NCBI GenBank assembly: GCA_022563055.1
Contig: JADFOB010000022.1
Coordinates: 1-10,027 of the forward strand
Reading direction: 5' to 3'
DNA from: Planctomycetota bacterium
GTDB taxonomy: Bacteria; Planctomycetota; Phycisphaerae; UBA1845
Length of the DNA stretch: 10,027 nucleotides
Positions 2,692 through 9,912 of this stretch are shown here, piece by piece. The position numbers and the translations under genes are program-made. Each line of letters begins with the position of its first letter. The stretch's first letter is position 1. The notes under the pieces are model-generated. The model made no database searches. It saw only the letters and a list, made by a program, of their open reading frames with translations, and was not told the DNA's origin.

Positions 2692-3750
2692 ATGACGGTT
2701 GAACTTGCTATGGATCGACGCCAACCGCTCAAAATTCTCGTCACCGGAGGATCCGGTTTTGTGGGTTCAGCCGTTGTGGCCCAGCTCGTTTGCCGAGGTC
2801 ACAAGGTGATTGCCACCGCTCGTGATGTTTCCACGACAATGGATGATCGTGTGGAGTCGCCGGACGCGTCACCGGTCGATACTCCGCGCGGGCTCCCGAC
2901 AAGTCGGGATGGCATTGTGCCCGCGGCTCGGGGGCACGGCACCATTTTGCACGCCCAGCAAGGCGATGCTGCGAATCCATCCTGGGTCGAGTGGGACGCG
3001 TCCACATCTCCGATACCCGAAGTCGAGTGGCGGGGACTGGATTGCGTATTGCATCTGGCGACGCCCGCAAAGTTGTTTGACTTTCCCAACGAGGCAGCGC
3101 CGATCTTTGAGGTGAACGTGGCGGCCACGTTTCGTTTGTTGGAGGCTGCGCGGACCAACGGCGTCCCAAAGGTTCTGTTGGCTTCGACCGGCGACGTATT
3201 GGGGTCTGGTGAAAAGCCCGCGCACGAAGATGATACGCTTTACTCGCCCCGGAGTTTCTACGGTAGTGCCAAGGCGTGCGCGGAGTTGCTCTTGCGCGCG
3301 TATCAGCCGATTCTGTCGACGGCGATTCTTCGCATCTATCATCCCTACGGACCCCGAGGCGATCGGGTTCTGGTGAACCGCCTGGTCAAAGCCGTTGTGG
3401 AGGGTCGGGAGACTCGAATCGAAGGTCGAAATGGAATCCAACTCAACCCGGTGTGGATCGACGACTTGGCGCTTGGCATCTGTCTCGCCTTGGAATCAGA
3501 TGCCAACGGCGTCTTCCATTTTGGGGGACCACAAACCCTGTCGCTTCGCGCGTTGCTCGAAATGGTCGGAACGCTCGTTGGCAGAGAGCCCCTGATCGAA
3601 AGCGATTTGAGAGAACCGACGCGCTCGCACGTCGGCGGATTCGACCACACAAGCCGGATCCTGGGCTACGAGCCACGCGTAACCCTGCGCGATGGGATCG
3701 AGCGACTGCTGGAATCCTGGTCCGCGTGTTCGACGGTGGGAGGAGCGTAG
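2692..3750 (+). CDS. Divergent extended SDR (NAD-dependent epimerase/dehydratase) with a repeat-derived insertion
   Basis: The 352-aa protein has the glycine loop VTGGSGFVG (17-25), HLATPA (121-126), ASTGD (164-168) in place of the usual SSS region, and YGSAK (190-194) with catalytic Tyr190 and Lys194. RIYHPYGPR (214-222) corresponds to the RPxNxYGP substrate-domain motif. It is therefore an NAD(P)-binding sugar epimerase/dehydratase or reductase; its substrate is unknown. Between the second Rossmann strand (ATARD, 41-45) and the next expected strand (VEWDAS, 99-104) lie about 50 extra residues that are hydrophilic and poor in structure. The DNA for residues about 64-82 holds two hairpins (2894-2909 and 2917-2937), so the insertion looks repeat-derived. 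ATG 2692 is used here; ATG 2710 (residue 7) is equally possible, as neither has a good ribosome binding site. The stop is one base from the next start. Confidence 0.85.
   Translation: MTVELAMDRRQPLKILVTGGSGFVGSAVVAQLVCRGHKVIATARDVSTTMDDRVESPDASPVDTPRGLPTSRDGIVPAARGHGTILHAQQGDAANPSWVEWDASTSPIPEVEWRGLDCVLHLATPAKLFDFPNEAAPIFEVNVAATFRLLEAARTNGVPKVLLASTGDVLGSGEKPAHEDDTLYSPRSFYGSAKACAELLLRAYQPILSTAILRIYHPYGPRGDRVLVNRLVKAVVEGRETRIEGRNGIQLNPVWIDDLALGICLALESDANGVFHFGGPQTLSLRALLEMVGTLVGREPLIESDLREPTRSHVGGFDHTSRILGYEPRVTLRDGIERLLESWSACSTVGGA
2894..2937. repeat. Palindromic repeat inside the second SDR gene
   Basis: Two adjacent hairpins lie in the coding sequence: tcccgac-aa-gtcggga (2894-2909, perfect) and gtgccc...gggcac (2917-2937). 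The first has the same core as the palindrome at 7579-7596 in the GT39-like gene and is read in the same frame there. The encoded stretch is PTSRDGIVPAARGHG, within an extra loop of the Rossmann domain. Confidence 0.65.
3738..3744 (+). promoter_or_regulatory. Shine-Dalgarno site fixing the start of the GT2 gene
   Basis: The sequence gggagga lies inside the last codons of the second SDR gene, seven bases before ATG 3752. It selects this ATG over the in-frame ATG at 3692, which would add 20 residues ahead of the conserved N-terminal strand VSIIVPAFNE. Confidence 0.75.
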
Positions 3751-5942: not shown

Positions 5943-5961
5943 CCCCGTGTCGGGCAGAGTT

Positions 5962-5982
5962 GTCGGGCAGAGCCCGACCTAC
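5962..5982. repeat. Palindromic repeat, left copy of an inverted pair
   Basis: The perfect hairpin gtcgggc-aga-gcccgac (5962-5978) is followed by ctac. The 18 bases 5965-5982 match the reverse complement of 6267-6284 at 17 of 18 positions, so the same element flanks the intergenic region in both orientations. The first part of the repeat is also duplicated 13 bases upstream (5948-5959). Confidence 0.75.
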
Positions 5983-5991
5983 CGTCTGAGC

Positions 5992-6009
5992 CGCGGGCTT
6001 CAGCCCGCG
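5992..6009. repeat. Perfect GC-rich hairpin
   Basis: The sequence cgcgggct-tc-agcccgcg forms an 8-bp stem with a two-base loop, 50 bases after the aminotransferase stop. It might end or protect the upstream transcript. There is no T-run, so intrinsic termination is not supported. Confidence 0.6.
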
Positions 6010-6127
6010 CGAACGCTCGGGTTCGACGGCCACACATCCATGGTCCCGTAACTTCAGAGGTCTGACTTACCGGACGATAAGCCGCATGAGGCGAAATGAA
6101 TGCGCGCGCTGTGCGCGGTGTGCCACG

Positions 6128-6172
6128 GCGCGGGTTCCCCAGACTTGCTTCGCAAGGATGGGGCGCCCGCGC
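6128..6172. repeat. Large hairpin repeat, copy 1
   Basis: The outer arms gcgcggg / cccgcgc enclose an inner stem (ccccagacttgc at 6137-6148, gcaaggatgggg at 6152-6163, 10 of 12 pairs) with a ttc loop. The left side shares gggttcccca with the second large hairpin at 6221-6230. The bases just before it, ggtgtgccacggc (6117-6129), also recur at 7483-7495 inside the GT39-like gene. Confidence 0.7.
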
Positions 6173-6223
6173 TCGGCGTACTACGACCTCCACGGTGGGG
6201 CGGCCGCTACCAGAGATCCCGGG

Positions 6224-6258
6224 TTCCCCACGCTTCGCCTTGGGCGAACGGTGGGGAA
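6224..6258. repeat. Large hairpin repeat, copy 2
   Basis: Two 16-base arms (ttccccacgcttcgcc / ggcgaacggtggggaa, 14 of 16 pairs) close a three-base loop. It is related to the hairpin about 90 bases upstream through the shared gggttcccca and the cttcgc core. Confidence 0.7.
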
Positions 6259-6266
6259 CGGAGCAC

Positions 6267-6285
6267 GTAGGTCGGGCTCCGCCCG
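6267..6285. repeat. Palindromic repeat, right copy in inverted orientation
   Basis: This is the reverse complement of the 5965-5982 repeat with one mismatch, and contains the small stem cgggc-tcc-gcccg (6273-6285). It ends 12 bases before the start codon at 6298, so the repeat occupies the place where a ribosome binding site and leader would be expected. Confidence 0.7.
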
Positions 6286-6297
6286 TCGGAACCGTTT

Positions 6298-8352
6298 ATG
6301 ACGATGGCCCAAACACCTTCGGTGGCAGTAACTCTTCGCAGTCGCCCTGCGCGCGACGTCGCCGGCGCCAAGATGCCGACGCTGGGCACGCTCACGGCGG
6401 AGCGGGCGGGGATTGGCTATCTGCCGGCGCTTGGACTGCTCCTTATTCTGGGGATTGCAGCCGCGATTCGGTTCCACGGTTTGGCTCGCGAGGGGTTCTG
6501 GGGCGATGAGTACGCGCAGGTTCAGTTGTACAAGCTCCCGCTGCACTACACCTGCTGGTATGCGCTGACTCGCCACTGGCTTGGCCCGCTTGATTTCATC
6601 ATCGGGTGGTTCGCCTACCGTGTGGATCCCTCGGAATGGATGTGCCGATTCCCCGCGGCTTTGTGGGGCGTGGTCGCGGTGGGAGCGTGCTTCTTTCTGG
6701 CACGGCAGCTCGCCACGTGGCGCGAGGGGTTGATGGCTGCGGCGCTGATGGCCGTGTGCCCGATGCACTTGGTACTCTCGCAGGACGCGCGACCCTACAG
6801 CATCTGTTTGGCGATGATCCTGGTCATGCTGGTCCTTTTCCTGCGTGCTTTCGAGAAACCGAGCTATCGGCGCGTTGCGCTCTACGGACTCGTCGCCTAT
6901 GGGTCCACGCTCACGCGCACGTTCACACCGGCGGTGTTTCTTCTTGTGATCGGTCTTGTCTTGAGCGCCGCCGTTGTGGGCATTCGCCGTTCAGACGTTC
7001 GCACACAGGTTGCGGGTGCTGGTGCATCTGAGGGCGAGCGCCGGGCGGTGCGGCGGTTGTGGGTTGCGACATTGGCGGCGGGTTTGGCGGCCCTGCCGAT
7101 GATGCTGTTCCTCGCCAGGTTCGTCGCTCAAAAGAGCGGTATCTCGGGCAGCTTCATGCCCAACGCCTATGGGATTGATGTCCGACTGCCCGCCAAGCTC
7201 GTGAACTTCACCGGGATCGCGTGCCGCGTGTTGTTTGAGAACTACGGGCCTTGGGTGTTGGGACTTGCGTGTGTGGGTGGCGCTTTGCTGCTGTTCCGAT
7301 GGCGATCGCTCCCGTTGGCTACGCGGTGCATGACGGCGATCATGCTTATAGTAGGCCCCGCGATCCTGTTTGCGTACACCTACGTTTCCGGCGTGCTGTA
7401 TCTCTATGACCGGTACAACTTTCACCTGATGCCGATCGTGGCGACGCTGGCGGCTATTGGCTTTGTCGCAATTGTCCGGGTTGGTGTGCCACGGCTCTGG
7501 AGCCGTGTTCCGCGCAGGCGTGGAAATCGTATCGCTCAAGAGCAGTGCTCTTCGCACGAGCAGCCATGGTACCGTCCGGTCCCGACGCGTCGGGACTCAA
7601 GAGCAGTGGCACACCGAGAACGTCCATCAGTTGACAGGCAACGGAGCACTAGCACCGCTCGCTCTGTTTGGAAGCGAATCGCAGTGTGTGCGGGTCTGGC
7701 TGCGACGTTTGCTTATCCGGCGCTGATGAGCGCCGATGAGATGCGCAACTTTCGCCGGCGGGACTGGCGCGGTTGCGCTGCTTACCTCAGCGATCTTGTA
7801 ACGCCGGATGACGTTGTCATGGTGCTTACGGATCAACCTTTTGGGCGCGTGCAAAAGCGCTTCTTCGGGAAATACGAGTGGAACCCCAAGCGTCGCCCGC
7901 TCGGCGAGGCGATGTGGACGCTGGCGATATCGGATGGTCACTTTCAGCGGCTCTGCCGACAGTCCGGTCGCGTCTATACCGTGATCGCCTACCCGGTTGA
8001 TCCGCAGCCGGAGGAGGCCTATCGCTCGGTCGGCCTTAAGGAGGCGCCCGCCGGGTACCGTCTCGAGAAGTTTCGTGGGCTTGATCTGCTGATTCGCGAT
8101 GGGGGAATCGACAATCTCATGGAGGAGGTCGTCGCCATCTGCGGTGACCTTCTCGAGCTCCCCCGCGCGGACCCATCCACGAACATCGTTCCGCTGATCC
8201 TGCGATCGCGAATCCAGTTTCATCTCGGGAATGTCGACGAAGGCGAAGCGTTACTCGCCCGAGCGGCCGCGCTGGTGGTGCCGATCCAGGCTGATTACTT
8301 CGAGCGCGCGACCGTCGGATGGGTACCGCGCGGTTCACCGAACAAGGGATGA
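6298..8352 (+). CDS. GT39/PMT-like polytopic membrane glycosyltransferase with a repeat-derived cytoplasm-side insertion
   Basis: The 684-aa protein has a hydrophobic first helix (about 41-59) followed by GFWGDEYAQ (66-74). The Asp-Glu pair after the first helix is the GT-C catalytic-loop signature. SQDARPYSICLAM (161-173) matches the family's SQxARxY segment. Roughly ten hydrophobic segments run to residue 475. A soluble C-terminal part begins with FRRRDWRGCAAYLSD (485-499), the usual segment after the last helix, and ends in a helical TPR-like stretch (about 628-662). By family it transfers a sugar from a polyprenyl-phosphate donor on the periplasmic side; the acceptor is unknown. Between two helices (395 and 459) lie about 57 Arg/Pro-rich residues encoded by palindromic repeats. 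ATG 6298 is the first plausible start; ATG 6304 is also possible and neither has a good ribosome binding site. An undecaprenyl-linked donor from the GT2 at 3752 is a reasonable guess. Confidence 0.85.
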   Translation: MTMAQTPSVAVTLRSRPARDVAGAKMPTLGTLTAERAGIGYLPALGLLLILGIAAAIRFHGLAREGFWGDEYAQVQLYKLPLHYTCWYALTRHWLGPLDFIIGWFAYRVDPSEWMCRFPAALWGVVAVGACFFLARQLATWREGLMAAALMAVCPMHLVLSQDARPYSICLAMILVMLVLFLRAFEKPSYRRVALYGLVAYGSTLTRTFTPAVFLLVIGLVLSAAVVGIRRSDVRTQVAGAGASEGERRAVRRLWVATLAAGLAALPMMLFLARFVAQKSGISGSFMPNAYGIDVRLPAKLVNFTGIACRVLFENYGPWVLGLACVGGALLLFRWRSLPLATRCMTAIMLIVGPAILFAYTYVSGVLYLYDRYNFHLMPIVATLAAIGFVAIVRVGVPRLWSRVPRRRGNRIAQEQCSSHEQPWYRPVPTRRDSRAVAHRERPSVDRQRSTSTARSVWKRIAVCAGLAATFAYPALMSADEMRNFRRRDWRGCAAYLSDLVTPDDVVMVLTDQPFGRVQKRFFGKYEWNPKRRPLGEAMWTLAISDGHFQRLCRQSGRVYTVIAYPVDPQPEEAYRSVGLKEAPAGYRLEKFRGLDLLIRDGGIDNLMEEVVAICGDLLELPRADPSTNIVPLILRSRIQFHLGNVDEGEALLARAAALVVPIQADYFERATVGWVPRGSPNKG
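7483..7652. repeat. Composite palindromic repeat inside the GT39-like gene
   Basis: The element begins ggtgtgccac (7483-7492) and its inverse gtggcacacc lies at 7606-7615. Inside are the hairpins 7490-7507 (cacggctc-tg-gagccgtg), 7538-7552 (aagagc-agt-gctctt) and 7579-7596 (gtcccgac-gc-gtcgggac), all perfect. Also present is a direct repeat ctcaagagcagtg at 7535 and 7596. Bases 7600-7652 match the intergenic copy at 2612-2664. The open frame runs through all of it, giving residues about 396-452. Confidence 0.75.
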
Positions 8353-9697: not shown

Positions 9698-9728
9698 TTC
9701 GCCGTACGGGATCCTGTGCCACCGATCC

Positions 9729-9782
9729 GAGCCCCAAGCGCGAGCGCGGGGGTTTGTGACCGGTCGCTTGCGCTCGCGGCTC
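9729..9782. repeat. GC-rich inverted repeat in the last intergenic gap
   Basis: The 18-base arms (gagccccaagcgcgagcg and cgcttgcgctcgcggctc, 15 of 18 pairs) enclose an 18-base spacer containing the palindrome accggt. The arm sequence resembles repeats I associate with planctomycete genomes, but that memory is not a database result. A run of A, not T, follows, so it is not a typical intrinsic terminator for the upstream gene. The rest of the 9698-9912 gap shows nothing I can name. Confidence 0.65.
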
Positions 9783-9912
9783 CAAAAAGCGGCGCCTAAT
9801 CGCGCACAGTAGTTTCGGTTCACTGTGAGAGCCGCCGATTCGAACGGGTAGGAGGAGGACCAGACTTGGCGATCGTGATCGCCACGCACTGGACCGAAGA
9901 TTCGAAGAACGA

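Follow-up and report, generated by a model that had tools for sequence, protein, structure and literature searches.

A palindromic segment read in frame within a membrane glycosyltransferase gene of Planctomycetota, probably an inserted array of GTGTGC-tagged REP sequences

The window, i.e. the whole stretch of 10,027 nt analyzed here (contig JADFOB010000022.1 of assembly GCA_022563055.1; Planctomycetota, Phycisphaerae, UBA1845), reads as a sugar-polymer gene cluster. Its genes encode a GFO/IDH/MocA oxidoreductase, a hexapeptide acetyltransferase, two NAD-dependent epimerases (1465-2592 and 2692-3750), a family 2 glycosyltransferase, a DegT aminotransferase, a PMT_2 membrane transferase and another family 2 glycosyltransferase. 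The PMT_2 gene, assigned to the GT-C fold membrane glycosyltransferases, is located at 6298-8352 of the forward strand, encodes a 684 aa protein and is the host of the insertion described below. The protein matches Pfam PF13231 at 40.9 bits (cut-off 26.1). Foldseek matched its predicted model with OST/STT3 chains and with ArnT (5f15, 5ezm), at a TM score by target of 0.50-0.52 and an rmsd of about 14, and the modeled fold is GT-C-like. Concerning related bacteria, a pattern scan of the genome collection led to a relative of the transferase on a contig of Phycisphaerae bacterium OFTM243 (L001, genome G001; 59% in the best segment), while a protein search gave matches in three of the 397 genomes of the class of G001, namely G001, G023 and G038.

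The palindromic insertion is located at 7483-7652 of the forward strand, is read in frame as 57 codons (7483-7653, residues 396-452) and lengthens the host protein by about 52-57 residues. An earlier note on this DNA described three perfect hairpins with outer inverted ends, and all of these are present. The first hairpin has arms of 8 nt (7490-7497/7500-7507), the second has arms of 7 nt (7538-7544/7546-7552), the third is the perfect 18-bp palindrome GTCCCGACGCGTCGGGAC at 7579-7596, and the outer 20 nt (7483-7502/7596-7615) form inverted ends with 90% agreement, that is imperfectly. RNA of the segment 7483-7670 is predicted to fold at -82 kcal/mol, against -69.5 ± 4.5 for shuffled sequences (z = -2.77; 1 of 200 shuffles equally good). 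The reading frame runs through the 57 codons (7483-7653) without a stop, as the same note had stated, and the peptide is Arg/Pro-rich as claimed there, with 14 Arg and 6 Pro among 57 residues and a net charge of +9. The highest net charge of the host protein, +10, is found in 57-residue spans starting at residues 404-406. GC content by codon position is 0.68/0.65/0.54 in the insert vs 0.65/0.48/0.73 in the remaining gene. The predicted model brackets the insert with helices at 377-396 and 452-483, in line with the claimed position between two membrane helices; residues 399-450 have a pLDDT below 50, and the mean pLDDT around the insert is 80.7.

Alignment of the window protein with 17 of the 18 proteins found (the most distant, P0018, was omitted) revealed that 16 of the 18 aligned proteins lack the insert, which is carried by the window protein and by P0001 (96% identical). 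The alignment gap spans residues about 400-451, so that the insertion predicted at residues about 396-452 is recovered with slightly narrower limits. At this position P0002 and P0005 bear a shorter, different stretch, and the remaining 14 proteins have neither. That stretch is APPASPLGKGG-like and possibly comes from another palindrome family. The copies of G001, G023 and G038 also lack the insert, as judged from alignment spans: 499 query residues align to 448 codons in L033, 79 query residues around the loop align to 27 codons in L034 and 619 align to 563 in L035. At the DNA level, no empty site was near enough to define the exact ends of the insert.

The 170-bp element was matched in 34 of 100 relatives of G001 (E-value up to 0.01, up to 8 candidates scored per genome). 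Comparison of 31 loci allowed us to recognize a REP unit with a tag, a hairpin and frequently a second, inverted unit. The unit consists of the tag GTGTGC and the hairpin CAC[T/G]GCTC-loop-GAGC[A/C]GTG, and tag-outward inverted dimers are often formed. When the loop is allowed 1-5 nt, the corresponding pattern is found at 621 sites, distributed over 45 of the 100 relatives (G001 included), and never with the reversed control; one relative carries up to 83 exact-pattern sites. Among 392 genomes drawn evenly from the phylum it occurs in seven (reversed control 0), with 11 sites in G001, 31 in G241 and 1-3 in each of five further genomes; G241 and these five mostly present a G-C stem and a 3-nt loop. 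A narrower pattern (2-nt loop, one mismatch) found G001 only among the same 392 genomes. The family is concentrated among the relatives of G001, yet it is not confined to them, since the wider pattern reaches seven genomes of the phylum. G241 (contig C1) lies outside the 100 relatives searched, and the G-C stem with 3-nt loop predominates among its listed sites.

The tag is one-sided. Among 342 strand-wise palindrome hits it lies upstream in 173 and not in 169, which is expected if nearly every REP site bears the tag on one side. Conservation drops abruptly at position -6, outside the tag and the stem, in sites that were oriented by the tag, a choice that favors it. Additionally, the variable stem pair changes between T-A and G-C in concert, being Watson-Crick in 158 of 164 cases vs a mean of 90 and a maximum of 107 in 2000 shuffles, a statistic that is optimistic because copies within one genome are related. 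REP neighbors at 120 nt or less in the fetched loci are arranged as in REPINs, with 16 pairs tag-outward, none tag-inward and seven in the same direction. Rfam gave no match at E-values up to 1.

The insert of the window can be read in terms of this unit. A complete REP unit, with the tag GTGTGC and the hairpin CACGGCTC-TG-GAGCCGTG, is located at 7484-7507 of the forward strand and fits the family consensus; together with the preceding base it translates as GVPRLWSR. About 26 nt further, what is probably a partial inner unit without a tag lies at 7534-7547 on the reverse strand; of 16 tag-outward dimers, 12 have spacers of 21-34 nt. The tag end of a third, inverted unit lies at 7596-7614 as an exact GTGTGCCACTGCTC on the reverse strand, its far arm being replaced by the 18-bp palindrome. 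Finally, 7616-7652 (reverse strand) is a leader module, CTAGTGCTCCGT...GATGG, which stands upstream of the tag in some REP units (11 of 237 unit matches, both window copies counted; 50 shuffles gave a mean of 0.54 and a maximum of 3). The window copy is a degenerate composite rather than a clean dimer. A second copy of the REP tag and leader module, with an exact tag, is intergenic at 2598-2664 on the reverse strand. The part at 2612-2664, which the earlier note had reported as non-coding DNA also present at 7600-7652, does lie in the gap separating the two epimerase frames (1465-2592 and 2692-3750), but it has 77% identity over 53 nt rather than being identical.

REP units were also found in frame within other genes. 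The dihydrolipoamide dehydrogenase frame of G067 has 44 residues between aligned blocks vs four in the solved relative 2eq7, and its insert holds two tandem REP units, each translated as TAQEQWHT. In a ThiD2-ThiE fusion of G071 (L093, contig C218), the peptide RLYVLITE, which presumably forms the first strand of ThiE, is followed by about 122 residues before the alignment to the ThiE domain begins. This extra segment contains a REP unit translated as GVPRLLSR, that is, in the frame used in the window. The extent of the ThiE insert is inferred, because solved ThiE relatives align only from residue 288-292. The same insert also has GGQDARPP and GEQDARPP segments, suggesting further repeats piled at one site. 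A coding test covered 228 unit matches, in which palindromes may count on both strands, and 190 unit-in-frame pairs, and was passed by nine pairs in six loci; one of these has a Pfam match above the cut-off (L168), one below it (L097) and four have none (L091, L098, L105 and L164). In L097 the REP precedes a transposase start. The ThiE locus L093 failed the coding test and was detected through Pfam, in a scan of 10 candidate open frames around REPs that placed L093 above the cut-off and L097 below it and left eight without a match. The two confirmed extra hosts are a minimum.

Another dispersed repeat, also palindromic, is found in frame in a second gene of the window. The NAD-dependent epimerase at 2692-3750 (forward strand), identified by Pfam Epimerase and by alignment, has an insert of about 42 residues at 2848-2973, with a dispersed-repeat core at 2883-2933. 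Of 159 proteins found, 19 were aligned with the epimerase, and among these only P0019 (99%) and P0020 (80%, with an insert 7 residues shorter) share the insert. With an E-value limit of 0.01, the DNA of the insert has matches in 16 of 100 relatives, in 12 of which the match falls in the core (best E-value = 8.5e-15, 94%), and eight copies were scored in each of G012, G032, G044, G048 and G063. Relative to P0020, 15 of 35 residues of the insert differ vs 54 of 310 in the remainder (p = 0.0012); relative to P0019, 2 of 42 differ vs 1 of 310 (p = 0.039). As far as these sequences tell, the insert appears to be kept open but weakly constrained, because it changes faster than the remainder and has 7 residues fewer, in frame, in P0020.

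Concerning the enzyme that may mobilize the REP family, the transposase frame of L097 (genome G011) lies between REPs and matches NCBIfam REP_Tyr_transpos at 99.1 bits (cut-off 80). Used as a RAYT query, it gave matches in 64 of 100 relatives, and 30 loci were examined, one from each of 30 genomes. In fourteen of these the RAYT is flanked on each side, at no more than 90 nt, by one or more REP units, and the other 16 have no REP unit within loci of 2.2-3.5 kb. Because the query began inside the REP of L097, the upstream unit touches the aligned start in about five of the 14, and a distance of 0 denotes an overlap with that start. In a tree with midpoint root, all 14 flanked RAYTs and the unflanked L113 form one clade of 15 (support 100/100), whereas none of the remaining 15, forming the sister clade, is flanked. 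Where the loop is unusual (TGT, TGC, TATT), several loci repeat it on either side of the RAYT. Apart from the sites in the RAYT locus itself, REPs occur in 14 of the 15 flanked-clade genomes vs 31 of 85 other relatives (Fisher p = 3.8e-5, relatedness ignored); RAYT loci had been fetched from 15 of these 85. A strict dependence of the REPs on this clade is counted against because the sister clade and the three richest genomes carry REPs: 10 of the 15 examined sister-clade genomes have REP sites, and G022 (83 sites), G071 (55) and G052 (40) have no close RAYT match (39, 45, and 42% identity). The RAYT locus of G071, the one fetched among these three, is unflanked; in all three genomes the enzyme may have been lost, missed or be a different one. 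From these sequence data, one RAYT clade likely mobilizes this REP family and provides the candidate enzyme in the relatives. The earlier suggestion of a mobile or amplified element gains support from the 621 REP sites in 45 of 100 relatives and from the REP-flanked RAYT clade. A scan for Pfam PF01797 transposases (E-value up to 1e-5; 30 loci, 20 genomes searched) showed no REP unit, and it missed the cognate RAYT because this scores 22.4 bits vs a cut-off of 23. In G054, contig C1, a stretch of less than 5 kb (about 2614645-2619425) holds four RAYT matches that score almost alike, possibly through local amplification.

Rickettsia palindromic elements (RPEs) are in-frame palindromic inserts by which a conserved protein gains a peptide where it tolerates one. 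The insert of the window, being in frame and absent from most homologs, would likewise add a peptide at a tolerant site as a coding palindromic element, but it has another sequence and tag, and its family has a RAYT linked in relatives. The comparison with RPEs drawn by the earlier note is thus sound as an analogy, but the family differs, as RPE-4 and RPE-6 are counted among the CGTC repeats (PMC3733652) and the consensus foot here is GTGTGC, which is neither the CGTC tag nor the GTAG or GT[AG]G foot of the GTAG superfamily. The same paper describes GTAG and CGTC REPs inside genes, as single, dimeric or clustered tagged palindromes, and reports REPs in Planctomycetes and Verrucomicrobia (PMC3733652). 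The window family resembles these intragenic REPs as short tagged palindromes placed singly or in clusters within open reading frames, and differs from them in tag, lineage and host genes. Classes of RAYT and atypical feet have also been described (PMC6006769). The window family shares with REPIN/RAYT systems of TnpA-REP class 2 the inverted REP pairs and a RAYT flanked by its own REPs, and the class 2 pattern fits EHVH, WQ and YIHANP in the L097 protein, as read by eye; unlike that class, its tag is without GT[AG]G. Class 3, mainly of Planctomycetes, is described with YV..EQ and a CnGA foot, and the L097 system is unlike it (PMC6006769). The open-licence literature, searched largely through titles and the starts of abstracts, gave no published family recognized as a GTGTGC REP. 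In-frame REPs as such are known, because in-frame REP clusters are in print, coding for 43-82 residues in Thauera and R. conorii (PMC3733652). The idea that the element was undescribed as a coding element consequently stands for this family in the literature searched, but not for REPs of other families; the family, its tag, its RAYT and its hosts look new.

Taken together, we consider it highly probable that a REP array was inserted in frame in a loop of the GT-C glycosyltransferase and is translated as a tolerated linker. The 170-bp segment would be an array of one complete and two partial units plus a leader module, of a REP family found mainly in Phycisphaerae-related bacteria and probably mobilized by the RAYT clade. 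In the GT-C fold the domain after the last helix faces outward; the array would have been inserted, or have grown in steps, in a probably cytoplasmic loop that precedes the final membrane helix. The gene stayed open because the array length keeps the frame and the frame used lacks a stop. Translation of the array would provide the enzyme with a disordered linker of positive charge, and a tolerated, near-neutral insertion is the best reading. REP insertions in genes would usually be lost, and those in frame and free of stops in exposed loops would survive as linkers. A RAYT-dependent process most likely moves or copies the REPs as single strands, a step suggested by the gene linkage and by published work on other TnpA-REP enzymes (PMC8266576).

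A wider claim, which we hold to be doubtful, is that new protein segments arise repeatedly from REP/RAYT systems in these bacteria. Several unrelated palindrome families would then enter exposed loops without breaking the frame, two of these families having reached genes of a single sugar-polymer cluster, and selection would retain some of the inserts as new linkers. That the glycosyltransferase insert itself was co-opted for a function and kept by selection, for example as an arginine-rich cytoplasmic loop binding a partner or a lipid, seems unlikely. It would agree with the identity of all 57 insert residues between the window protein and P0001, with the charge maximum of the protein at the insert and with the persistence of the epimerase insert in frame at 80% identity. 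However, the comparison with P0001 is not significant (29 of 627 residues differ outside the insert; Fisher p = 0.16), the epimerase insert diverges faster than its surroundings in both comparisons given above, and the glycosyltransferase insert is predicted to be disordered and has a GC profile by codon position unlike that of the gene. Removal before or during translation, by splicing of the mRNA or by ribosomes skipping the element as in translational bypass, would suit the strong hairpins of the transcript. It is very improbable, as an open frame would be needless in a removed segment, but inserts are in frame and stop-free in the membrane transferase, the epimerase, the dihydrolipoamide dehydrogenase and ThiE (the last two weigh less, having been found via an open-frame search), and the lack of an Rfam match points to no known intron family. 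An ancestral segment lost in most relatives, a reading favored by the short extra stretch that P0002 and P0005 have at this place, is hardly credible against its absence from 16 of 18 aligned proteins and from the G001, G023 and G038 copies and against the match of its DNA to a dispersed repeat. An intein was put aside as improbable, because the insert is short and apparently disordered.

With the probable REP array, a palindromic insert that is presumably translated can be assigned to a defined repeat family with a likely mobilizing enzyme, in a lineage other than those named for coding REPs in the consulted sections of PMC3733652. The enzyme-DNA pair has an unusual tag and is amenable to in vitro testing, and loops of conserved enzymes, dihydrolipoamide dehydrogenase among them, harbor small palindromes without loss of the open frame. 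Elsewhere in the window, a GC-rich, inverted-looking stretch at 9710-9790, past the last complete glycosyltransferase gene, is by eye unlike the GTGTGC REP. The intergenic region 5943-6297 has many inverted repeats, and at 6118 the REP-tag-like GTGTGCCACGGC leads into a different long hairpin.
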